Assembly (NCBI RefSeq): GCF_000160555.1
Contig: NZ_GG749281.1
Span: 1 to 32,942, forward strand
Reading direction: 5' to 3'
DNA from: Centipeda noxia ATCC 43541
Lineage (GTDB): Bacteria > Bacillota > Negativicutes > Selenomonadales > Selenomonadaceae
DNA: 32,942 bases
Shown here: positions 17,900 through 32,942 of the stretch, piece by piece
Layout: every line of letters begins with the position of its first letter
How positions within the stretch are numbered: position 1 is the first letter of the stretch
Made by a program: the position numbers and the translations under genes
Notes under the pieces: model-generated
What the model was told of the DNA's origin: nothing
Seen by the model: only the letters and a program-made list of their open reading frames with translations
Database searches by the model: none

Positions 17900-18038
17900 C
17901 CGTCCTTGTCAGAGACAGAGAGCTACCGATTTGGTCTGGGTCTATTATAGCGGAGTTTTTGTCCAGTGACAACAGAATCTTTTCGCCCGCTGTATCGGGC
18001 GATGCAGTGTAAACGCCCTATGGCCTCTGTGGAAAACA

Positions 18039-18067
18039 TTGACAAAAATCCCCGTGTGTGCTACGTT
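18039..18067 (+). promoter_or_regulatory. Promoter of metNIQ
   Basis: TTGACA (18039-18044), 17-base spacer, TACGTT (18062-18067) with an extended TGC before it; the metN start is 36 bases downstream. I see no S-box, T-box or other methionine riboswitch between. A small hairpin (CGCCCG/CGGGCG, about 17984-18001) lies upstream, without a T run. Confidence 0.55.
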
Positions 18068-18103
18068 TGTCACGGTATATTACAGCCAAAGGAAGGCTTG
18101 CCT

Positions 18104-19156
18104 ATGATATATTTGAAAAACATTGTGAAAACATATGCGGATGACATCCACGCGCTGCGCGGCATCAATCTGCGCATTGAGCGCGGGAGCATCTACGGCA
18201 TCGTCGGCCTCTCGGGTGCGGGCAAGTCCACGCTCATCCGCTGCATCAACATGCTTGAGCGTCCGACGAGCGGCGAGGTGCTCGTGGGCGGGCGCGATCT
18301 CATGCAGATGTCGGAGAGCGAGCTGCGCGAGGAGCGGCGCCACATCGGCATGATCTTTCAGCATTTCAACCTGCTGTCCTCCGCGACAGTCTATGACAAT
18401 GTCGCCTTTCCGCTGAAACTCGCGGGCAAATCTGCAGATGAAATCCATCCGAAGGTCACAGAGCTGCTCGCCCTCGTCGGTCTCTCCGACCGGGCAGACG
18501 CCTATCCGAGCCATCTCTCGGGCGGGCAGAAGCAGCGTGTCGGCATCGCGCGCGCGCTTGCCGGCGATCCGAAGGTGCTCCTCTGCGATGAGGCAACCTC
18601 AGCGCTCGATCCTCAGACGACGAAGTCCATCCTCGCGCTCATCCGCGACATCAACCGCCGCATGGGACTGACGGTCGTCGTCATCACGCACGAAATGCAG
18701 GTCATCAAGGACATCTGTGACCGCGTTGCGGTCATCGACGGAGGCGTCATCGCCGAGGAGGGAGATGTCGTTGATGTCTTTACCGAACCGCGCGAAGCAA
18801 TCACCAAAGAATTTATCAGTGTCCTGCTCTCGAACGAACTGCCGACGGCATTTCGCGGCAATCCCGTCGAGTGCGATCCGAGTCCCGGGAGCTACATGCT
18901 CCTGCGTCTCACGTTCCTCGGGGAGAGTGCGGACAATCCCGTGCTTGCGGACATGATCCGCCTCTTTCCCGACATCGAGGTTACCATGCTCTTCGGCACG
19001 CTCGACCAGATCAAGGAGATGCCGTTCGGCCGCATGATCATCGGGATGCGCGGCGAACGTGCAGAGATCGAGGCGGCCATCGCGTATCTTTCCGCACAGC
19101 ATTTGAAGCAGGAGGTGATCGGCTATGTCCGCCGAAATGATGCCCCTCTTAACTAA
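18104..19156 (+). CDS. metN: Methionine ABC transporter, ATP-binding protein MetN
   Basis: 350 residues. ATPase of the MetNIQ importer for L- and D-methionine. Seen: Walker A GLSGAGKST (35-43), Q-loop IFQHFNLL, signature LSGGQKQRVGIAR (138-150), Walker B VLLCDEATSALD and the switch HEMQVIKDICDRVAV. The last ~100 residues are the NIL domain, which binds methionine and inhibits the transporter when the cell is replete. ATG at 18104 follows AAAGGAAGG; the frame open to 17966 lies upstream of the promoter. It overlaps metI by 32 bases. Confidence 0.96.
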   Translation: MIYLKNIVKTYADDIHALRGINLRIERGSIYGIVGLSGAGKSTLIRCINMLERPTSGEVLVGGRDLMQMSESELREERRHIGMIFQHFNLLSSATVYDNVAFPLKLAGKSADEIHPKVTELLALVGLSDRADAYPSHLSGGQKQRVGIARALAGDPKVLLCDEATSALDPQTTKSILALIRDINRRMGLTVVVITHEMQVIKDICDRVAVIDGGVIAEEGDVVDVFTEPREAITKEFISVLLSNELPTAFRGNPVECDPSPGSYMLLRLTFLGESADNPVLADMIRLFPDIEVTMLFGTLDQIKEMPFGRMIIGMRGERAEIEAAIAYLSAQHLKQEVIGYVRRNDAPLN

Positions 19157-19778
19157 AGCGCTGGGCGAAACGATCTACATGGTCGCCATCAGCATGCTCA
19201 TCGCAAGTGCCATCGGCATCCCGCTCGGCGTGCTCCTGCACGTCACGGCAAAGGGTGAATTCCTCGACGCTCCGATGGTCAACCGCAGCATCGGCGCCGT
19301 CGTCAACGCCGTGCGCTCCATCCCATTCATCATCCTGATGGTCGCGATCATCCCGCTGACCCGCCTCATCGTCGGTTCGGCGATCGGCACGACTGCGGCG
19401 ATGGTGCCGCTCGTCATCGCCTCCGTTCCCTTCATTGGGCGGCAGGTCGAGACCTCTCTGCGCGAGGTGCCGCGCGGTCTCGTCGAGGCGGCACTCTCCA
19501 TGGGCGCAACGCCGATGCAGATCATCACCCGCGTCCTGCTCCCTGAGTCCATGCCCGGCATCGTCAGCCAGCTCACGACGGTCATCATCGCTCTCGTCGG
19601 CGAGTCCGCGATGGCGGGCGCGATCGGCGGCGGCGGTCTAGGTGATCTTGCGATCCGCTACGGCTACCAGAGGTTCCGTCCGGACATCATGATCGCCACC
19701 GTCGTCATTCTCATTGTTCTCGTCCAGCTCGTGCAGTTCCTGGGCAACACCCTCGCCGCACGGCTGGATAAGAGATAG
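19125..19778 (+). CDS. metI: Methionine ABC transporter, permease MetI
   Basis: 217 residues, five membrane spans, usual length for MetI. The coupling-helix EAA motif is visible as EAALSMGATPMQIITRVLLP, followed by GGGGLGDLAIRYGYQRF, characteristic of MetI. AGGAGGTGAT lies about 7 bases before the ATG, within the end of metN, so the 32-base overlap is real and translation is probably coupled. Confidence 0.96.
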   Translation: MSAEMMPLLTKALGETIYMVAISMLIASAIGIPLGVLLHVTAKGEFLDAPMVNRSIGAVVNAVRSIPFIILMVAIIPLTRLIVGSAIGTTAAMVPLVIASVPFIGRQVETSLREVPRGLVEAALSMGATPMQIITRVLLPESMPGIVSQLTTVIIALVGESAMAGAIGGGGLGDLAIRYGYQRFRPDIMIATVVILIVLVQLVQFLGNTLAARLDKR

Positions 19779-19875
19779 ATTTCCATCTCATTTCAATCAC
19801 AATATGTGCCGGACACGATCACTCGCATAACGCGTCACTTTCGTCAGGCACGTATACACAAGCAAGGAGGTTTTT

Positions 19876-20688
19876 ATGAAGAAATTACTTACACTCGTTC
19901 TCGCCCTCACAACACTTGCCCTCGTCGGCTGCGGCGGCGGCGCGAACAATTCTGCCGCCAAGACGGAGAAAGTCATCAAGGTCGGCGCATCCCCCGTTCC
20001 CCATGCCGAGATTCTCGAGGCGATCAAGCCCGAGCTCGAAAAGGAAGGCATCAAACTCGAGATCGTCGAGTTCAACGATTACGTCCAGCCGAACCTCGCA
20101 ACGAACGACAAAGAGGTCGATGCGAACTTCTTCCAGCATGAGCCGTATCTCAAGAACTTCATCACCGAGCATCCGGAGCTGAAGCTCGTGAACGTCCTCG
20201 GCGTTCACGTCGAACCGATGGGCGTCTACTCGCACAAGATCAAGAAGCTCGACGAGCTCCGAGACGGCGCTCAGGTCTCCATCCCGAGCGATCCGACCAA
20301 CGGCGGACGCGCCCTGCTCCTCCTCGAGCGTGCAGGTCTGCTGAAGCTCAAGGACGGCGTCGGCGCTGCAGCAACCGTCCAGGATGTCGTCGACAATCCG
20401 AAGCATCTGAATTTCAAAGAGATCGAAGCGCCGCAGCTGCCCCGCACCCTCGATGACGTAGACATCTCCGTCATCAACACGAACTGGGCGATGCAGGCGG
20501 ACCTCGTTCCGACGCGCGATGCCCTCTTCATGGAGGACAAGACCTCGCCGTACGTCAACATCCTCGTCGTCCGCGAGGGCGATGAGAATCGTCCCGAGAT
20601 TCAGGCCCTCATGAAGGCGCTCCACTCCGATACGGTCAAGAACTTCATCAACGAAAAGTACAAGGGTGCGATCATTCCGGCATTCTAA
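19876..20688 (+). CDS. metQ: Methionine-binding lipoprotein MetQ
   Basis: 270 residues. A type II signal peptide with lipobox LVGC places the lipid on Cys19. The NlpA/MetQ family features follow: KVGASPVPHAEILE, FNDYVQPN, EVDANFFQHEPYL, GVYSHKIKKLDEL, IPSDPTNGGRALLLLERAG and VINTNWA. It delivers methionine to MetNI. ATG at 19876 follows AGGAGG. The 97-base gap after metI has no terminator, so all three genes are probably one operon that ends at the hairpin at 20712. Confidence 0.96.
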   Translation: MKKLLTLVLALTTLALVGCGGGANNSAAKTEKVIKVGASPVPHAEILEAIKPELEKEGIKLEIVEFNDYVQPNLATNDKEVDANFFQHEPYLKNFITEHPELKLVNVLGVHVEPMGVYSHKIKKLDELRDGAQVSIPSDPTNGGRALLLLERAGLLKLKDGVGAAATVQDVVDNPKHLNFKEIEAPQLPRTLDDVDISVINTNWAMQADLVPTRDALFMEDKTSPYVNILVVREGDENRPEIQALMKALHSDTVKNFINEKYKGAIIPAF

Positions 20689-20827: not shown

Positions 20828-22099
20828 ATGGAGCAAATATTGATAAACAACACTATATATGGTCGATGGATGTACCGCATTCTGCTGGGACTTGCGTTCG
20901 CTTCAAACATTTCAACAGGGGCTTCATCGATATTCGCTGCAGCGGGGCTCCTTCTTGTGTTGATCCAATCTGTACGTACACGGATATCTCCCCCAGTTGA
21001 TTCCGGATTAGCTGCCGCCGTTCTCATCTATCTTGGCATTTGGGTCATCTGCGGATTGACCTCACGAGAAGCGAGCACATCTGTCGCCGCAGTAGGAGGG
21101 GCAGCACACCGTATTCTGCCGCTTTTTCTCACGATGCTTTATGTACATCACAAGGAGCAGATGCGCGCTATCATTCTCGCTTTTGCTGCCTCCGTCTGCA
21201 TTAACGACATCACAGCGTTTGTCCAGCTCGGCATTCACGGCATGGAATGGCGTCCAACTGGCCTCGTCCACTCTCCGACATTTTTAGCCAGCCATCTGCT
21301 TATGGCGATCCCCGTACTTTGTTTCTTCTCTCAACAATCATATATGAAACATTTTCAACGCCCGCTGCTGGCCCTTGCGCTGCTTTCAGGAGTTCTTCTC
21401 CTGCTGACCCAAACACGCGGTGCATGGCTTGCGGCTGCAGGCACTTCTGCGCTCTTGTTCGCACTCACCCCGCAGCTGCGCCGTGTCCTGCTCGCCGCCG
21501 CCCTGATCGGTACACTGCTTCTCAGCGCAGTTATACTGTTTTCTCCAACTTACTCGTCCCGGCTCATATCCATTTCTGATACAGGGTATGCTTCTAACCA
21601 AGAGCGAATCTACATGTGGCAGGCGGCTCTTGATATCTTCCGAGACCATCCCATTTTAGGCGTCGGCATGGACGAATACGGATATTATTACAACACGGCT
21701 TATATTCCCGATGCAGCAAGAGAACGCCCCCGTGATCCGGATGATCCGAGCACCGGTCACGGTCATCCGCACAACAACTTTCTTAAGCATCTTTCCGAAG
21801 GCGGCATCTTCGGTGCTGTGGCATTTCTCTTGCTGCACGGCTATCTTTTCTATCGCCTTTACCAGCAGTTCCATGAGGAACGCCGCCAGAGGACACCGGC
21901 CTATGCCTTAATGGGAATTCTCGTTTTTGCCGGTATTCACCTTGAGGGGCTCACCGATACAAATATCAATCAGCTCTCCATTGCGCGCGAATATTGGCTG
22001 CTGATGGGCCTCATTCTTGCCAGTGGAGCAATGGAACGCCTCCCGCATACAGCGTGCACAGAAAAATCTTCTCCGGAATCCTCGTCTCATGAATACTAA
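20828..22099 (+). CDS. O-antigen ligase (WaaL/Wzy_C) family membrane protein
   Basis: 423 residues with about 10-12 membrane segments. The long periplasmic loop contains SNQERIYMWQAALDIFRDHPILGVGMDEYG and HPHNNFLKHLSEGGIFG, the Wzy_C (O-antigen ligase/polymerase) signature including the His-Asn pair; QTRGAWLA precedes it. Members join O-polysaccharide or other lipid-linked glycans to lipid A-core or to proteins in the periplasm. It cannot be decided from sequence whether it is WaaL, a Wzy polymerase or a protein glycosylation ligase; no other sugar genes are beside it. Ribosome site GGAGAGCAGGA is slightly imperfect. It overlaps the MATE gene by 11 bases. Confidence 0.85.
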   Translation: MEQILINNTIYGRWMYRILLGLAFASNISTGASSIFAAAGLLLVLIQSVRTRISPPVDSGLAAAVLIYLGIWVICGLTSREASTSVAAVGGAAHRILPLFLTMLYVHHKEQMRAIILAFAASVCINDITAFVQLGIHGMEWRPTGLVHSPTFLASHLLMAIPVLCFFSQQSYMKHFQRPLLALALLSGVLLLLTQTRGAWLAAAGTSALLFALTPQLRRVLLAAALIGTLLLSAVILFSPTYSSRLISISDTGYASNQERIYMWQAALDIFRDHPILGVGMDEYGYYYNTAYIPDAARERPRDPDDPSTGHGHPHNNFLKHLSEGGIFGAVAFLLLHGYLFYRLYQQFHEERRQRTPAYALMGILVFAGIHLEGLTDTNINQLSIAREYWLLMGLILASGAMERLPHTACTEKSSPESSSHEY

Positions 22100-23555: not shown

Positions 23556-23613
23556 GGCGAAAGAAAACATTGCGCGTCCTGCACACACGATCTATTTAAA
23601 TAAAGAATTTCCA

Positions 23614-23640
23614 GCACCCTTTCGGGTGTTTTTTATTTTT
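23614..23640 (+). terminator. Terminator of the ligase-MATE unit
   Basis: GCACCC pairs with GGGTGT around loop TTTC, followed by a long T-rich tract. Downstream, 23641-23743 is very AT-rich with no gene. Confidence 0.8.
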
Positions 23641-23813: not shown

Positions 23814-26800
23814 ATGAAACAAAGAACACGCCGGACGCCTTCGTTCCGGCATACACTTTCCTTGGCTGTCGCAACATGGTTTGCCCTCCCTGCATACACG
23901 GTCTGGGCAGATAATGCAGTACAGGGAGAGAGCAGTGTATACACTGATGATATACATGTCGATGCAGATGCCGTAAAGGAAGAGGCAAAATATGAGTCAC
24001 AGTCGACGACGATCATCACGGCGGAGGACATCGCACGCAAGCAGGCAAAGTCCGTCGAGGATGTGATCTTTAACGAGGTTGGTGTGACGCGCACCATCGA
24101 CGCAATGGGCAATGTCGGCGTGTCGATCCGCGGCGCTGATCCAAGGCACACGTTGATTCTCGTGGACGGACAGCGCGTGCTCGGCGGCGAGGCAAAGTAC
24201 AATGGCAGCGGTGATGAGCTGCTGCGCATCGGCGCGGAGAACATCGAGCGCATCGAGATCATCCGCGGCGCAGCGAGCGCGAAGTACGGCGCAGATGCCA
24301 TCGGCGGCGTGATCCGCGTCATCACGAAGCAGGGCGTGAAGAATCCATCCGTCTCACTGAACATCGAGGAACGCTATCACCGCTCCCGAACGGGGAGCGG
24401 TACGGAGACGAAGACCCTGCCCGCAAATTTCTACCTGCGTGCAGACGCGGGCGACATGGGCAAGCTGAACCTCAGCGGATGGACATCAAAGCGCGAGGTC
24501 ATGCCCGTCTACTCCCACGGCAAACAGTTCGTCATGGGCGAAAACTGGTACGAGGATTTCAAGCCGTCGCTGCGTTTTTATGGTTCGATCAAAAATGACG
24601 GTGTGAGCGGCTCCTACAAATTTGACGACGCGAACAAACTCTCCTTCCGCTTCACAGCGGAGCGCGAAAATATGCAGCGGCGCAACAAGGGTGAGCTCTA
24701 CCCGCTCGGCTCCTTCTTCGAACCGATGCAGATCTATCAGCGTGACCGGAGACGCGATACGTACAGTCTCAGCTACGAGGGGCGCATCGGCAAGAATACG
24801 GACTTCACGCTGAACTACGGCTACGGCAAGCTGCGCGAGGATGACTCAACTCTCCTCACCTACTACAGCAGCGGGCGTGACAAATACTCCGGCAAGAACA
24901 GTCTTGCAGGTGTGGACTATCTTGACCACACGCAGACGAACATCGACCTGCACTTCAACACCGCCGTGAATGACGCGCACTATCTCAGCTACGGCTTCGG
25001 CTGGCAGAAGGAGTATGCCGCAGGGTCACGTCTGCGCAATGCGCCGAAGAGCTATACGAAGAAGATCAATCCGTGGGACTATGACAAGTCGCTCGATGTT
25101 GATGACAATACGGCGGGCGTAGACGACGAGCCAAGCTCCTACGTCCACAACTATAAATTTATCCGCAATGAAAACGGCTTCGTCTGGGATAGAAACGGCG
25201 AATACTACGGGGCGGAAACGCCGCCGATGACATACGAGGAAGTGCAGCGCGTTCTTCCGGAGATTTTCGGCGGCGGCATTGTTGACCCTGCTATGCAGGC
25301 GAAATACGATGCATTTGAGGCGCTTCTCAAGGCACAGAATGATTTCAGCGATTCCAAATTTGACAATACACCGATGATGTATAAACATGCGCCCGTTCTC
25401 GGCTACTACGGCGCATTGGCGCAGTTCGGACCGGCATATAAGCAGGACAAGAACATCACATTCAACGGAACGTACTACGGGCAGGGCTTTGCCGCGCGGC
25501 AGAACCAGCTGCTCCTCGGCGAGGCGGACCTCACGAAGACCTACGCCTATGTGCAGGACAGCTGGCAGGTGACCCCGAAGACCATCCTCACGCCCATCCT
25601 GCGCATCGACCACAGCGGCCGCTTCGGCTCGCATACGACCTTGAACCTCGGCATGACACACATGCTTGCGAAACACCGCCGTCTCAAGGCAAACATCGGC
25701 ACGGGCTACGGCGAGCCGGGACTCGGCGAACTGTTCTACAACTGGGAGATGTACGGCGGCACGGGTGCAGACCATCTCGGCTGGTACTGGATCGGCAATC
25801 CGAACCTGAAACCCGAGAAGTCGCTGAACATCGACCTCTCACTCGAGGGGGAGAACGAGCGCACCTACGGGAAGGTCGGCATCTTCCACAACGAGATATC
25901 AGACTATATGACCCACTACTTCACAGGTCAGCTCGTGGACTTCAACTTCCATGGGCGGAGCTTCCGCAACGTGCCCGACCGCATCTACAGCTTCCGCAAC
26001 ATCGGCAAGGCAAAGCTCACGGGGATTGAGGCAGAGGTTCAGCACAAGTTTGACAAGCACTGGAGCGCAAAGCTTGGCTATACCTATCTGCACGCGATCA
26101 ATGCGAGCGACGATGATCTGCCGCGCCGTCTGCTCGATCGCCCGACGCATAAATTCGATGTCGGTGTCAACTACAAGGATGAGGCGCACGGCTGGCGCGC
26201 GGCGTTCTGGGGCAGCTTCTTCAGCCGCATGCTCGACAGCAACTCGGTCAAGACGGACAATCTGTTTGAAAAGGACGGCGCGGGCAACTACATCCGCAAG
26301 CGCGGCGAATACCGTGAAAAGAGCTTCGGCATCTGGAACCTCCTCGTCGAGAAGGATATCCGCAAGGACTTCACCGTCTATGCAGGAATCGACAATCTCT
26401 TTAACCATCAGGACGATGACCGTGCCTATCACGACCGCATGTTCCGCTTCGGCGTGAATATGAAGTTCGATGAGTTCGGCTCGTTCCTTGACACGGGCAT
26501 TCACCGCAACGCGGACGGTGTACTGGTCGACCGGGACGGCGTGCCGCTCAAGAATTTTTATAGAGAGGACTTTTTCCTGCGCCGCCCCGAGACGGCAACG
26601 GACAGCAGGGCAAAGGGCAGCCTCGACTTCTTCGGCGACTACCGTATGCGGACGAATACCTACCGCGGCTATGACCGCACGGAGATGCGCGAGACGAAGG
26701 AAACGCAGGCGGATGCAGATGCGGCACGGAACTATGCCGACCGCCCTGGGCACGGATTCGGGCAGCGTCTGCGCATCGGCGCGGACTATCGCATTGATAA

Positions 26801-28598
26801 TAAGCTCGGGGTCAAGGCAGTCCTCGCAACAGGCGAGGCGAACGATGCGGCAGATCCCGTGGACGAAACGAAAGGACTCGGCGGCGTCCACGTCGAGCGG
26901 GCCGAGGTCACGGGCAGCCCCGGCCGCTGGGACTGGACGCTCGGGCGCATCCATGAGCCGATGGGCGTGACGGGCTACTTCTTCGGCAAGGAGTACGACG
27001 GTGTGCGCGTCCTCTACACGAAGGACCGCACGCAGGTCGCCGCAGGATTCGGTGACTTCTCCCGCACAACGGGAGTCTATACAAGCGCGTACAGCCACAA
27101 GGAGGCGGCGATCATCCGCCGTGCCCCGACGCTGAACGAGCTGTTCGGCTACTATACACAGGAGGTACGTGATGCCAACAACCAGACTCAGCACGTCAGC
27201 AGCTCTCCCTATCCCATGAACTACGACCCGAACGCACCGGCAAATTTCCGCGAGAAATATAACAACGCGGGCAAGATACAGGACGCGGACGGCAACTGGG
27301 TGCGCGATCCTGCACTCTCCGATGTGCAGATCGCCGAAAAGAAGCTCGATGTCATGCGTGAGTTTGTCAGTATCCTCAAATCCGTGGATGCGGAACTCGT
27401 GCGCCGCTCGAACGAAACGCCCGGCGGCGGCGGATATGAAAGCAAATGGGAGAAAATTCTCGACGGAGATGGATCCCCTGATACCGCAACATCCACGTTT
27501 TATAGTAATTTTTACAGCGCTCGTGTCGTTGTGCGGCGCAGCGACGGCGTCGTCCGCGACCTCTATCGCGACAACAACTACGCTGCACTCAAATATCTAG
27601 ACCTCTCTCAGGAATCAGGCGTCGGTTCGCCTGTGGACAACCCGAAATACGGCGGCGTTGAGGGTATGCTCCGCGAGGAGAATATCCGTACGATGATGGA
27701 CGACATCCTAAAGGAAGTTGAGGATGCGGGCAGTACCTATGAGACGCAGGACGGACAGACGCTGACACGGGCTGAAGCAATTGACCGTATGTTCAGCGAC
27801 TTCGTCGGTGAAACTGCGGAATATTTTGACCAGAATATCCCCGGCAATTACGGCGGTTCGATTGGGAGATACAACGGCGTATCAAAATTTTTCTCGGCAA
27901 TGATGGGCAACGAGCGCTTCAATCCGCTCAACAATGCCCCCATCCCTCTTCCCGGGGCCCCCATCGCTTTCCGGCAGCCCGGTTTCCTGCTGAAACACGA
28001 CGTGATTCCAAAGATAGAACGTGCGGGCTTCCTCAAGGTACGCCATCAGTTTGGCAAACGCCTCGGTGCGGAGCTGTGGACGCTGCGCTCCTTCGGACAC
28101 GGCATGGATGTGAAGGGCGAGGAGCTGCCGATTGCGAACGTCATCGGCATCGGTGCACGCGCCGTCCTCGGTCCGCGCACGATGTTCTCCTTCGACTATG
28201 GCATCAACCGCGCTGCGACAGGACGCTATTTCCACGGCGCCAGGGACATCTACGGACGCTATACGGGCAGCGGCTCCGTGCCGTACTTTTGGGTCATGCG
28301 CCTGGACTTCGGCATTCCCGACATGGACATCCCCGGCAGCTGGGGCGTCTACCTTGACTACAAGAATTTCGAGCACGGCGCATTCCTCGGCGGCACGGGC
28401 ACAGATCTGCCCGACCGTTACCTCGACGGCATCCGTTCCTTTACCGCAGGGCTTGCCTTCGTTCCCGCCCAGAACCTCATGCTCGAGGCGACATATACAT
28501 TCGGCGCGTGCAGCACGCAGATGCGCGACACGCTCTACACTCCCGAGAATTTCCGCCTCGGCGACTACACGCGCATTCAGCTCACCTATCGGTTCTAA
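23814..28598 (+). CDS. TonB-dependent receptor fused to a second porin-like beta-barrel
   Basis: 1594 residues, about twice the size of an ordinary TonB-dependent receptor. A signal peptide ends near A32. A TonB-box-like VYTDDIHVDA precedes a normal plug (about 60-170: SVEDVIFNEVGVTRT, VSIRGADPRHTLILVDGQRV, ENIERIEIIRGAASAKYGADAIGGVIRVITK). A receptor barrel follows and closes near residue 885 with FRFGVNMKF. After a charged linker of about 50 residues a second region starts near 934 with SLDFFGDYRMRTNTY and RLRIGADYRIDNKLGVKAVL, VERAEVTG, WTLGRIHEPMG, EYDGVRVLYTK, which looks like the porin barrels of Negativicutes; it contains a 200-residue hydrophilic insert and ends with YTRIQLTYRF, a normal outer-membrane C-terminus. 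ATG at 23814 follows AGGAG. A Fur-like box upstream suggests iron or haem import, not proven. Confidence 0.85.
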   Translation: MKQRTRRTPSFRHTLSLAVATWFALPAYTVWADNAVQGESSVYTDDIHVDADAVKEEAKYESQSTTIITAEDIARKQAKSVEDVIFNEVGVTRTIDAMGNVGVSIRGADPRHTLILVDGQRVLGGEAKYNGSGDELLRIGAENIERIEIIRGAASAKYGADAIGGVIRVITKQGVKNPSVSLNIEERYHRSRTGSGTETKTLPANFYLRADAGDMGKLNLSGWTSKREVMPVYSHGKQFVMGENWYEDFKPSLRFYGSIKNDGVSGSYKFDDANKLSFRFTAERENMQRRNKGELYPLGSFFEPMQIYQRDRRRDTYSLSYEGRIGKNTDFTLNYGYGKLREDDSTLLTYYSSGRDKYSGKNSLAGVDYLDHTQTNIDLHFNTAVNDAHYLSYGFGWQKEYAAGSRLRNAPKSYTKKINPWDYDKSLDVDDNTAGVDDEPSSYVHNYKFIRNENGFVWDRNGEYYGAETPPMTYEEVQRVLPEIFGGGIVDPAMQAKYDAFEALLKAQNDFSDSKFDNTPMMYKHAPVLGYYGALAQFGPAYKQDKNITFNGTYYGQGFAARQNQLLLGEADLTKTYAYVQDSWQVTPKTILTPILRIDHSGRFGSHTTLNLGMTHMLAKHRRLKANIGTGYGEPGLGELFYNWEMYGGTGADHLGWYWIGNPNLKPEKSLNIDLSLEGENERTYGKVGIFHNEISDYMTHYFTGQLVDFNFHGRSFRNVPDRIYSFRNIGKAKLTGIEAEVQHKFDKHWSAKLGYTYLHAINASDDDLPRRLLDRPTHKFDVGVNYKDEAHGWRAAFWGSFFSRMLDSNSVKTDNLFEKDGAGNYIRKRGEYREKSFGIWNLLVEKDIRKDFTVYAGIDNLFNHQDDDRAYHDRMFRFGVNMKFDEFGSFLDTGIHRNADGVLVDRDGVPLKNFYREDFFLRRPETATDSRAKGSLDFFGDYRMRTNTYRGYDRTEMRETKETQADADAARNYADRPGHGFGQRLRIGADYRIDNKLGVKAVLATGEANDAADPVDETKGLGGVHVERAEVTGSPGRWDWTLGRIHEPMGVTGYFFGKEYDGVRVLYTKDRTQVAAGFGDFSRTTGVYTSAYSHKEAAIIRRAPTLNELFGYYTQEVRDANNQTQHVSSSPYPMNYDPNAPANFREKYNNAGKIQDADGNWVRDPALSDVQIAEKKLDVMREFVSILKSVDAELVRRSNETPGGGGYESKWEKILDGDGSPDTATSTFYSNFYSARVVVRRSDGVVRDLYRDNNYAALKYLDLSQESGVGSPVDNPKYGGVEGMLREENIRTMMDDILKEVEDAGSTYETQDGQTLTRAEAIDRMFSDFVGETAEYFDQNIPGNYGGSIGRYNGVSKFFSAMMGNERFNPLNNAPIPLPGAPIAFRQPGFLLKHDVIPKIERAGFLKVRHQFGKRLGAELWTLRSFGHGMDVKGEELPIANVIGIGARAVLGPRTMFSFDYGINRAATGRYFHGARDIYGRYTGSGSVPYFWVMRLDFGIPDMDIPGSWGVYLDYKNFEHGAFLGGTGTDLPDRYLDGIRSFTAGLAFVPAQNLMLEATYTFGACSTQMRDTLYTPENFRLGDYTRIQLTYRF

Positions 28599-28613: not shown

Positions 28614-28655
28614 AAAAATCCTGCTCCCGAGAAAATCGGGAACAGGATTTTTCTT
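28614..28655 (+). terminator. Terminator of the giant receptor gene
   Basis: AAAAATCCTG-TCCCGA (28614-28630) pairs with TCGGGA-CAGGATTTTT (28636-28652) with one C-A mismatch and loop GAAAA, followed by more T. Confidence 0.9.
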
Positions 28656-28890
28656 TTCCGTTCGGAGTGCCTCTTTCAGTGCTTGCTGACCTGTCCAAGA
28701 GCAAGCCCATAGGGCGCAGCTGATGGGGAACAGGTCGTATGCAAAAACATCCCAACGACACGAGCGTGAGCGACATTTGATTGGTTGACGTTGACTGCTG
28801 CCACGCGGGATGTGCGTGGAACATGTAGAAGCGGCGGGCGCAGCGATCCGATAGGAGCGCTCGTACAGCAGCCCCATTTTTCGTTTCACC
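28656..28890. other. Convergent intergenic region with several hairpins
   Basis: No gene is supported. Seen: GACCTGT (28688-28694) pairs with ACAGGTC (28730-28736) around nested GCCC/GGGC and AGC/GCT stems, and a second hairpin CCACG/CGTGG (28801-28819). These may be part of a terminator or an unknown small RNA; there is no T run after them on either strand. Minus-strand frames through here have no ribosome site. Confidence 0.4.
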
Positions 28891-29991
28891 TCACGGCGTC
28901 GCTGGCGTCTCCGCGTTCACCGCGCTGCGGCGGATCATATCGCCGACGCGCAGATCATAGGTGAGTGCCTTCTTGTGCAGGGTCTCGGCACGCGCAAAGT
29001 CCTCCGGCAGTCCTGAGTCGAGGCCTTTTACGAAACTCTCATACGAGGCGATGGACGCCTCCGTCGCCGCCTTGCGCTGCGCCGCAAGGTACGCCGCGCC
29101 GCGCGGAACTTCCACAGCATCGAGCTCACGCTGGTATTTTTTCAGCACGGGGATCATATCCTCCTGGAGGAGACGCGTGAGCGCTCTGCGGCGCTCGGTC
29201 GTATAGGTGCTGCGCTCCGTCTCCGTGAGGCTGCGGAACTCGCGCTGCGTCGAACGAAATACGCTGTTGTAGCGATCGACGATCGGGCGCGTCGCCTCGA
29301 TATAGCGTGTGATGTCGCTGCCTGCCGCCGACTGGACCGCCTCGAGATAGGCGCGATAGTTCGTCACGCGTACGATCTGCCATCCCGCCGCCCCCCGCTC
29401 CATGCGCAGCTGCAGTGGGAACTCGATGCCTGTGCCGCCGTCCCGCACCTGGATCGATGCGACGGCAGCACTGCCGTCCCATGCGGTCTCACCGACGCTG
29501 AGCAGCTCCGTATCACGCAGGTGGCTGCACTCCATCAGATACTCATAGTCAATGCCGAGTTGGCGTCCCTTGAGCGCATCCGCTCCGCCGGGTTCCTCCC
29601 ACACGCCGCTCTTCACGGCATTCTCAATCGTGCGGACAAGTCCCTCCGTAACGCTCTCCTTGACATTCTGGTAAAACTTGCCGGATGCATTGCGCTGCGC
29701 CTCTTTGAGGCTTGTATCGCGCGCAAAGAGGACATAGGTGAGATCGTCATAGCCGGCATCACAGACCGCCGCGATGTTCACGCGCCGCAGAAAAAGCTCC
29801 GCATCGTTCTCCCTGACTGCGGCTGCCGCCTGTTCAAGCGCATAGGCAGGGCGTTGGATGTAGTAGCCAAGGTAGCCTGCAAGCACAGCAATGGTGAGGA
29901 CGATGAATCCCGCTGCCAGACGGAATTTTCGCTGATATGCCTTGCGTCGCCGCGCCATGCGTACACGCCACGCGAACTCATCCACCGCCAT
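28891..29991 (-). CDS. Single-pass membrane protein, possibly DUF2939-like
   Basis: 366 residues. A basic N-terminus (RMARRRKAYQRKFR) and one membrane segment at about 26-46 (LAAGFIVLTIAVLAGYLGYY) anchor an external soluble region. Directly after the anchor, PAYALEQAAAAVRENDAELFLRRVN resembles DUF2939 proteins, which share a P-x-Y-x-L-x-Q-x-x-A-x-x-x-x-D pattern; this is from memory. The remainder is helical and charged, including long Arg/Glu helices near 265-330. I chose the start at 29991 (GGGGAGG about 8 bases upstream); an earlier ATG at 30030 falls within the -10 region. Function unknown. It is convergent with the giant receptor and divergent from the B12-regulated receptor. Confidence 0.72.
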   Translation of the reverse strand: MAVDEFAWRVRMARRRKAYQRKFRLAAGFIVLTIAVLAGYLGYYIQRPAYALEQAAAAVRENDAELFLRRVNIAAVCDAGYDDLTYVLFARDTSLKEAQRNASGKFYQNVKESVTEGLVRTIENAVKSGVWEEPGGADALKGRQLGIDYEYLMECSHLRDTELLSVGETAWDGSAAVASIQVRDGGTGIEFPLQLRMERGAAGWQIVRVTNYRAYLEAVQSAAGSDITRYIEATRPIVDRYNSVFRSTQREFRSLTETERSTYTTERRRALTRLLQEDMIPVLKKYQRELDAVEVPRGAAYLAAQRKAATEASIASYESFVKGLDSGLPEDFARAETLHKKALTYDLRVGDMIRRSAVNAETPATP

Positions 29992-30028
29992 CGCTGCGCC
30001 TCCCCTCTCATAAAATTCAAACGGTGTC

Positions 30029-30058
30029 ATTATAGCATTGAAGATTCATTTCCCGCAA
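30029..30058 (-). promoter_or_regulatory. Extended -10 promoter of the DUF2939-like gene
   Basis: Minus strand: TGCTATAAT (30029-30037) with a weak -35 TTGCGG (30053-30058) 18 bases away. Its position sets the gene start at 29991 rather than 30030. Confidence 0.65.
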
Positions 30059-30755: not shown

Positions 30756-32942
30756 ATGTCCGAGAAAAGGAAAAAGAAGCATCTTGTCGCGGGTATCCTG
30801 TGGATGCTGCTCATCGGGGTGCTGTGTCATCCTGCGGCCGCTGCAGAGACGACGTCTGTGTCGAGCCCTACCGTGGATGGCGGGCAGGCTGAGACATCAT
30901 CCAGCGAATACACGACGCCCGATATCACCGTTGAGGCAAAACGCCCTTCGTGGGAGGAGATCCTCTCCCCCGGTACCGTGACTATCATCCGTCCCGAGGA
31001 GTTCAAGGGGGAGCAGAAGTCCTTGCCCGACTTCCTCAAGATGGTTCCCGGTGTGCATGTGCGTGAGGTCAACGGCAAGGGACAGTATACGACGGTGACG
31101 GTGCGCGGCTCGACAGCAGCACAGGTCGGCGTATTCGTCGACGGCGTGCTGACGAACCTCGGCGGCGATGCGGCGGTCGACATCTCGACGATCCCCGTCA
31201 GCAACGTCGAGCGTATCGAGGTCTACCGCGGCTATATCCCCGCGCGTTTTGCGGGCACCTTCATCGGCGGTGTCATCAACATCGTGACGAAGAAGCCGAC
31301 AGGTGCACACGGCTCTGCCGAGATCGGGCCGAGCTCGTTCGGCGGGAAGAAAGCATCGGTCGAGGTTACGGCGCCTGTCGGCAAAGGCAGCCTCCTCTTC
31401 GGATTCAACCACGAGTCGCGTGACGGCGACTTCCCCTATCACAGCTTTGCGGCGGATCAGTATTATACGAATACCCAAATTGGGCAGACGATCCTCGAGA
31501 CGCGGGCCGAACTGCAAGGTTACCTCGCTATGACACCGGCAGAGAAAGCCGCGTTTGATATCGCAAATGGCGCCGGAGCATGGCAGCAGAATGTAGATGA
31601 TTGTATCCAGTGGCTTGGTAATTACGAACGCCAGACAAGTGCTGCCGACGATCCGCGTCGCTGGCGAAAATACAATGACTACAGCAATTCGGATCTCCTG
31701 CTCAAATGGCAGAATGACGACTGGATGATCAAGGCCACGTATAAGACCGTCGACCGACATCTGCCCGACAGTCTCTGGGTCGATTACAGAAGCTATTTCG
31801 ATATGATTACGCCCGGCCTTCTCGTGGATAAATACGATCTCTATAAATACGACAAGCGTCACCAGAAGATCACGGCAAAAGAGCTGCTCGTGCAGCGCCG
31901 CTATATAGGAAACCGCTACGAATGGGGCTGGATGGTCGACTACCTCACCCAGAGCAAGGACTACCGCGCCGAGAATATTCATGATGGTCTGCGCTACATG
32001 ATTAAGGTTCCCATGCGGGAGTGGAGCCGTTACCGTTCGAAGAAATACAATGTACAGATAGACGGTACCTATCAGCTCAACAAGCGTAATATGCTTGATT
32101 TCCAGATGAACTACTCCCACGAGCGTATGAATATCCAAGGCGACGGGCTCGACGAGGTCATCGACGATGTGCAGGCCGGCATCGGAAATCTATGGACGCA
32201 GATGCGCGACCAGTTCGATCAGAACATCTTCAACGCACAGCTGCAGGATACGATCACGCTCGACAAGAAACGTTCTTGGCAGCTCACCCCTGCGATCCGC
32301 TACAACCGTTCAGAGATCGTCGGATACAGCAGGTTCGGCCGCTTTGATCCCCAAAAGACATACCATTGGGTGCATCCGAAGGACAGTCAGGTGGATTCCA
32401 GAGTCACATGGCAGCTCGCGGTCAAGAAGGAATTCAACAACCACTTCACGATGCGCATGACGGGCGGTACCTACTTCCGCCTGCTCAACATGTATGAGAT
32501 CGCAGGTGACGGCGCGGGCATCATGCCGGCGCCAATTGATCACAGAGGCAACAGTGCAAAATTTCCACAGCCCGAGTATGGCAAGCAGTTCGATCTCAGT
32601 GCCATCTGGGACGGGAAGTTCCTCGGCTCCGACAATCGCACGACGCTCACCTATTTCTGGCGCGATACGGATCGGATGCTGTATCTCTACCGCGCGGGTC
32701 TCAACTACAGTTCCTACTTCAACGATATGCGCGGCAAGGCACACGGCATCGAGCTGCAGACGAACTTCCACTGGAAGAAGTTTGATCTCGACATAGAAGG
32801 CACACATCTCCATATCAGCGCGCAGCGCAGGGACTCCTCTCCAGGCGTTGATCACTCCTGGTTAGAGGTGCGCCCGACCTATCAGCCCAAGTGGGAGGGC
32901 AACATCCGCCTGACCTATCGCCCGACGGAGAAATGGCTCTTC
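30756..32942 (+). CDS. TonB-dependent receptor, probably for cobalamin (BtuB-like), cut by window end
   Basis: 729 codons are visible with no stop; the 3' end lies outside the window. A basic signal peptide (residues 1-30, ending PAAAA) is followed by a TonB-box-like DITVEA (56-61) and a plug at about 65-180: SLPDFLKMVPGVHVREV, VTVRGSTAAQVGVFVDGV, VERIEVYRGYIPARFAGTFIGGVINIVTKKP. The rest alternates Tyr/Trp-rich strands and loops of a 22-strand barrel. ATG at 30756 has GGAGG about 7 bases upstream. The cobalamin riboswitch in its leader is the main reason to propose B12 or another corrinoid as ligand. Unlike the receptor at 23814 there is no Fur-like box. A long minus-strand frame inside it is a shadow. 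Confidence 0.9.
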   Translation, partial: MSEKRKKKHLVAGILWMLLIGVLCHPAAAAETTSVSSPTVDGGQAETSSSEYTTPDITVEAKRPSWEEILSPGTVTIIRPEEFKGEQKSLPDFLKMVPGVHVREVNGKGQYTTVTVRGSTAAQVGVFVDGVLTNLGGDAAVDISTIPVSNVERIEVYRGYIPARFAGTFIGGVINIVTKKPTGAHGSAEIGPSSFGGKKASVEVTAPVGKGSLLFGFNHESRDGDFPYHSFAADQYYTNTQIGQTILETRAELQGYLAMTPAEKAAFDIANGAGAWQQNVDDCIQWLGNYERQTSAADDPRRWRKYNDYSNSDLLLKWQNDDWMIKATYKTVDRHLPDSLWVDYRSYFDMITPGLLVDKYDLYKYDKRHQKITAKELLVQRRYIGNRYEWGWMVDYLTQSKDYRAENIHDGLRYMIKVPMREWSRYRSKKYNVQIDGTYQLNKRNMLDFQMNYSHERMNIQGDGLDEVIDDVQAGIGNLWTQMRDQFDQNIFNAQLQDTITLDKKRSWQLTPAIRYNRSEIVGYSRFGRFDPQKTYHWVHPKDSQVDSRVTWQLAVKKEFNNHFTMRMTGGTYFRLLNMYEIAGDGAGIMPAPIDHRGNSAKFPQPEYGKQFDLSAIWDGKFLGSDNRTTLTYFWRDTDRMLYLYRAGLNYSSYFNDMRGKAHGIELQTNFHWKKFDLDIEGTHLHISAQRRDSSPGVDHSWLEVRPTYQPKWEGNIRLTYRPTEKWLF

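Follow-up and report, generated by a model that had tools for sequence, protein, structure and literature searches.

A single gene of Centipeda noxia ATCC 43541 joins a TonB-dependent receptor to an OmpM-type porin barrel in one chain of 1594 residues. It was analysed within a stretch of 32,942 nucleotides (contig NZ_GG749281.1, forward strand; hereafter the window) of a 2.05 Mb genome. Structure prediction, homology and conservation together give good support to the view that the product is a natural multibarrel outer-membrane protein, in line with the two-barrel protein put forward in the original prediction, which was made from the letters of the window.

Two predicted barrels in one reading frame

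The features of the gene and its flanks, with the evidence for each in brackets, are as follows.

23613..23630, +, hairpin resembling a terminator, with T tail, separating the MATE gene from the fusion gene (terminator scan)
23814..28598, +, fusion gene, TonB-dependent receptor and OmpM-type porin barrel, 1594 aa (ORF list, domain profiles, predicted structures)
23814..23909, +, signal peptide, residues 1–32, ending VWA/D (by eye from the sequence)
23946..23969, +, residues 45–52 (DDIHVDAD), similar in relatives, which we take to be a possible TonB box (alignment)
23997..24311, +, plug domain, residues 62–166 (domain profile, E 1.2e-22)
24312..26471, +, 22-strand receptor barrel, residues 167–886, with its own C-terminal β-signal FRFGVNMKF (model, structural matches, alignment)
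26472..26621, +, linker, residues 887–936 (50 residues), probably periplasmic (alignment)
26622..27059, +, OmpM-type barrel strands 1–7, residues 937–1082 (model, structural match, profile match)
27060..28019, +, variable insert within loop 4 of the porin barrel, residues 1083–1402, largely helical, probably extracellular (model, alignment, profile, orthologue comparison)
28020..28595, +, OmpM-type barrel strands 8–16, residues 1403–1594, with the second β-signal YTRIQLTYRF at the end (model, structural match, profile match, alignment)
28616..28657, +, inverted repeat with T-rich tail after the stop, likely terminator (by eye; absent from the list of the terminator scan)

As originally claimed, the frame was open throughout, with no internal stop between 23814 and 28598. 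The mature protein has a computed mass of about 176 kDa. A domain profile identified the upstream neighbour as a MATE transporter gene, and the hairpin between the two genes suggests that the fusion gene lies on a separate transcript. As the gene downstream is on the opposite strand (28891–30030, −; convergent, weakly matching DUF2939 at a score under the Pfam cut-off), the fusion gene is probably transcribed alone here. The terminator expected after the gene has a counterpart in the repeat 3′ of the stop codon. A Fur-like box had also been predicted upstream and was not borne out: no site matched with three or fewer mismatches, and the best one, at 14 of 19 positions, was equalled in 6.6% of 500 Markov shuffles. 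Elsewhere in the window we observed MetNIQ-like ABC transporter genes (17966–20688; ATPase with NIL domain, permease and NlpA lipoprotein), a Wzy_C/O-antigen ligase-like gene (20828–22099) and a further TonB receptor gene with a plug match and a barrel unrecognised by Pfam, which runs off the end of the window (30756–32942).

Predicting the structures of the two halves separately, as had been proposed for checking the idea, gave a receptor barrel and an OmpM-type barrel as two distinct folds. Two complete barrels per chain were thus found as predictions of two overlapping fragments (residues 36–1110 and 887–1594) rather than of the full-length 1594-residue protein. The receptor model, made with 58 sequences (pLDDT 74.5, pTM 0.68), contained 22 receptor strands by manual count of the strand list, the last at residues 876–886; beyond it came the linker, modelled with low confidence, and then seven porin strands. 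A TonB barrel profile matched residues 408–862 (E 2.8e-39) up to the last position of the profile. The best 50 structural matches to the receptor model all ended at model positions 850–854, i.e. residues 885–889, indicating that the entire receptor precedes the second half; closure had been predicted near residue 885. Profiles and predicted structure therefore agree on a TonB-dependent receptor with a plug and a complete 22-strand barrel. Among the 58 aligned members, mean pairwise identity in the plug was 0.79, and the phenylalanine at position 885, in the C-terminal β-signal of the receptor, was kept in 49. TonB-driven transport by the fusion is putative, the motif having been picked out by eye and exbB, exbD and tonB lying beside some relatives.

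Structural comparison of the receptor half ranked Cir first by Z score (Z 40.6 over 563 residues), followed by BtuB and FyuA, all three being closer than ChuA (Z 33.9 over 551 residues). Ranking by Foldseek E-value placed PirA and PfeA on top, so structure gives no ligand. Family models of haem, haemoglobin and B12 receptors all scored below their cut-offs on the fusion protein, TIGR01785 and TIGR01786 (haem/haemoglobin receptor) reaching 116 and 138 bits versus 317 and 324. A score of this kind lowers the case for membership in the family, not the case that the protein works like a haem receptor.

The linker, predicted at about 50 residues, came to exactly 50 in the alignment; it ranged from 34 to 69 residues in the 58 members, with a mean pairwise identity of 0.21.

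The closest structure to the porin-half model (residues 887–1594; pLDDT 77.4, pTM 0.71) was Veillonella parvula OmpM1 (Z 27.9, 2.3 Å over 281 residues), and the runner-up from another protein was Omp35 (Z 21.1). A profile of the fusion family with the insert columns removed matched 23 OmpM-type proteins over 358 columns (probability 99.9, E 6e-32). The porin-like strands and aromatic C-terminus of the original prediction were thus recovered together with an OmpM1 fold match, and the phenylalanine at 1594, which ends the second β-signal, was kept in 56 of 58 members. A PDB sequence search with residues 931–1594 found no match, and a PDB search with an alignment of the C half returned only chance matches, to sorting nexins; at the sequence level the likeness to OmpM was reached via stand-alone relatives of the porin half, one of which bears an SLH domain and matches OmpM1 in the PDB. 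The first set of such relatives from the sequence search comprised eight proteins of 369–447 aa. Four of the six stand-alone relatives scanned carried an SLH domain, and a domain profile scan of the 1594-residue fusion protein found none at E up to 1; the fusion is therefore OmpM-derived and not an OmpM. Assignment of the second half to Pfam Porin_5 was considered and rejected, as the window protein gave only a short match below the cut-off. In three scanned relatives, one Porin_5 match passed (23.6 versus 22 bits) and one just reached the cut-off (22 versus 22).

Manual counting gave 18 strand segments in the porin-half model, two of which flank the insert. We interpret these two as a hairpin outside the membrane, which would leave 16 strands, as in OmpM1 (PMC10628300). 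Alternatively, there could be 18 transmembrane strands with a periplasmic insert. A 16-strand OmpM-type barrel is accordingly our reading of an 18-segment model.

The insert was present in all 58 aligned members, at lengths of 247–424 residues. In both the model and the profile alignment it sits between OmpM strands 7 and 8, a position that would make it extracellular loop 4 if the OmpM topology holds. Mean pairwise identity was 0.26 in the insert versus 0.49–0.58 in the flanking strands, and the insert and the linker were the most variable parts of the protein. The orthologues at loci L062 and L097 were 88–98% identical outside the insert (60-codon windows) but only 60–68% identical over residues 1201–1380, where L062 was 90–97% identical to the window gene. 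Between L062 and L096, dS was 1.07 in the insert versus 0.22–0.33 elsewhere. This pattern of identity and dS points to recombinational, cassette-like swapping of the loop 4 insert between close orthologues, as would be expected for a surface-exposed domain.

Conservation of the fused frame in the Negativicutes

A scan of named genomes of the Negativicutes yielded 72 loci, 46 of which held 57 open fused frames of 1500–1829 aa. Frames were classed as intact when they were open over at least 1450 aa and matched to the C-terminus; 4 of the 57 start at a locus edge. The 26 loci without an intact frame, which carried partial or interrupted copies, were excluded from the alignments. Open frames occurred in Selenomonas, Centipeda, Veillonella, Megasphaera, Anaeroglobus, Colibacter and one Sporomusaceae genome, and included the chromosome of V. 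parvula SKV38. The longest in the named loci (L165:4794–10283, 1829 aa, Megasphaera hutchinsoni) has extra sequence in the receptor half. A Megasphaera cerevisiae draft genome contributed 16 of the 72 loci (L099, L105, L109, L114, L127, L136–L138, L141, L142, L144, L147, L150, L152, L154 and L158), with open frames at three (L099, L142 and L152), reflecting either expansion with decay or poor assembly. The window genome carries a second copy of the fusion (G000:C17:461500–466307; L080 5474–10311) in which the frame is interrupted, leaving ORFs of 366 and 1247 aa. Phase variation through homopolymer tracts was rejected, as neither the window gene nor four interrupted copies contained such a tract (at least 9 A/T or at least 7 G/C).

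A class-wide search found matches in 77 of 380 genomes, 42 of them strong. The strong matches were to frames of 1293–1847 aa, bar one of 103 aa, and the weak ones mostly to OmpM-sized frames; mostly two candidates were scored per genome, a depth at which a rare free-standing C half could be missed. In a genus-level search in which every listed candidate was scored, every strong C-half match belonged to a fused frame or to a fragment of an interrupted copy. At the level of the phylum, 6 of 398 genomes matched, and the sole one outside the class was weak (E 3.7e-4, 268-aa frame).

Five orthologue pairs gave dN/dS values of 0–0.20 in every region, with the linker at or below 0.10, so all parts of the protein, the linker included, are under purifying selection. 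Pairwise distances in the receptor half and the porin half were correlated (r 0.84, versus at most 0.24 in 1000 permutations), i.e. the two halves share a history. In a tree, all 58 fused receptor halves were separated from 20 single-barrel receptors, which were a convenience set, with a support of only 0.68.

We also considered whether the fusion is an artefact, due to an assembly error or to misreading a single large barrel or a C half that is soluble. Although 26 of the 72 loci held only partial or interrupted copies and the second copy of the window genome is interrupted as well, the 57 open frames, which come from many different assemblies with the SKV38 chromosome among them, exclude an assembly error, and together with the dN/dS values and the two separate predicted barrel folds they rule out a frame accident or a single large barrel, leaving an artefact with next to no probability.

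Haem genes in genomes carrying the fusion

HmuW degrades haem without oxygen, and the flavodoxin-type HmuF delivers haem and reduces the product (PMC10404700). Veillonella dispar and Veillonella atypica are among the carriers of haem clusters with HmuW and HmuF (PMC10404700), and five TonB family proteins were detected in the outer-membrane proteome of V. parvula (PMC5491611, Table 1). The chromosome of SKV38, which is a laboratory strain, has two tandem fusion genes followed by genes for ExbB, ExbD, TonB, a BilS-like flavodoxin and ChuW/HutW. The last of these scored 488 bits (cut-off 400), and the BilS-like gene fell below its family cut-off (115 versus 155 bits). In the Sporomusaceae genome, a ChuW/HutW gene over the cut-off lies directly upstream of the fusion gene. 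The flanks of the 72 loci contained HutW in 9 cases, a PNPOx-like gene in 3 and neither in 60. The PNPOx-like genes, accompanied by ExbB beside the fusion, were found in Megasphaera, Colibacter and Anaeroglobus (L133:3982–4803, L104:4104–4973 and L126:3932–4807); they are perhaps HugZ-like haem enzymes, and the one at L133 had no NCBIfam match.

HutW over the cut-off was present in 106 of the 380 genomes of the class, comprising 41 of 42 fusion genomes versus 65 of 338 others (Fisher p 7.5e-25, a value that ignores kinship and so overstates the case). The one fusion genome without HutW, G359, holds only the 103-aa fragment. HutW lay within 20 kb of the fusion in 17 of the 41 genomes and within 8 kb in 15, across four families. 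It was on another contig in the window genome (G000:C19), and no fusion genome of the genus of the window (12 in all) had it within 20 kb. The haem link therefore rests on relatives, and a haem reading of the window copy is by analogy.

Proposed function and relation to known proteins

The explanation that we favour, and to which we give an even chance, is that the fusion acts as a receptor for haem or a haemoprotein, with a surface capture domain that is attached in cis and anchored by the porin barrel; we infer the ligand, the state of the pore and the oligomeric form. The two barrels would be neighbours in the outer membrane, given that the receptor finishes on the periplasmic side, which is where OmpM-type barrels begin. 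The receptor barrel would import haem, possibly after its removal from a host haemoprotein, in a TonB-driven manner, and the imported haem would feed anaerobic breakdown by ChuW/HutW. The porin barrel would serve mainly as a membrane anchor, possibly also as a trimerising base, for the loop 4 surface domain, which may capture or hold the ligand beside the gate. TbpB and HpuA are separate surface co-receptors for other receptors. The TbpA/TbpB and HpuB/HpuA pairs would thus share with the fusion the proposed job of a surface domain beside a TonB receptor, but with a separate partner, whereas the putative one of the fusion would be in cis and barrel-anchored. The data are compatible with the 'partner barrel' suggested in the original prediction. 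Counted against a haem receptor with its own capture domain are the 65 genomes in which HutW occurs without the fusion, and the strands flanking the insert, which if transmembrane could put the insert in the periplasm.

With a little less confidence, we extend the proposal to a receptor class widespread in diderm Firmicutes, in which a TonB haem importer would carry its own co-receptor in the form of a tether-less OmpM porin with loop 4 turned into a surface capture domain that can be exchanged; the two-barrel chains might assemble as trimers.

Instead of an anchor, the porin half might be an open OmpM-like pore that passes small solutes beside the active receptor, combining gated import with a diffusion channel, as the original prediction had suggested might be the case. 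The barrel is indeed closest to OmpM1, a general porin (PMC10628300), but five separate OmpM-like genes in the window genome would make a bulk pore redundant, the large insert is found in every aligned member, and V. parvula carries two fusions, which, set beside PMC10628300, also speaks against an open pore. We regard this alternative as unlikely. OmpM1 is a trimer (PMC10628300) and its fold is close, so by analogy the porin half might be a scaffold whose trimerisation clusters three TonB receptors; this possibility, compatible with a haem receptor bearing a capture domain, seems to us unlikely. It is also conceivable that the chain is inserted whole and then cleaved within the linker, so that one gene would supply two independent barrels. 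The variable length and sequence of the linker and the C-terminal β-signals kept by both barrels would suit a precursor of this sort, yet the low dN/dS of the linker among close orthologues does not, and we consider processing improbable.

The original prediction had described known TonB receptors as single barrels of roughly 600–1000 residues. For TonB receptors this largely holds, but two-barrel chains have been described, e.g. GfcD (PMC11494523), multibarrel outer-membrane proteins being known mainly from prediction; the same paper cites Solan et al. 2021 (PNAS) for work on proteins that contain more than one barrel domain. The fusion therefore adds the combination of a TonB receptor with an OmpM-type barrel, not a new category. 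GfcD shares with it two predicted barrel domains per chain, and differs in having 12 and 13 strands and a proposed role in polysaccharide export (PMC11494523), compared with 22 and 16 strands and a TonB-type receptor here. Like Cir, BtuB, FyuA and ChuA/ShuA, the fusion has a plug and a complete 22-strand barrel; unlike them, its chain runs on via a linker into a second barrel. It has the porin barrel fold in common with OmpM (V. parvula OmpM1, PDB 8bys/8bym/8byt) and differs in lacking an SLH domain and in having a receptor as N-terminal partner and a 247–424-residue insert in loop 4. The HmuR haem operons with HmuW and HmuF resemble the Veillonella relatives in their TonB receptor, ExbB/D, TonB, HmuW/HutW and flavodoxin, but no second barrel is mentioned for HmuR in the accessible part of PMC10404700. 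In the open-licence PMC literature, as far as accessible, we came across no account of a fusion between a TonB receptor and an OmpM-type barrel; Solan et al. 2021 may list the family.

If our reading is correct, one chain can be built from an active importer plus a barrel of the porin type, and the barrel-assembly machinery has to handle an internal β-signal. The arrangement suggests a route to a co-receptor without a surface lipoprotein. In relatives of the window gene, this multibarrel protein lies within an operon of readable function, which offers a lead on haem-iron acquisition by Veillonella and Selenomonas relatives.
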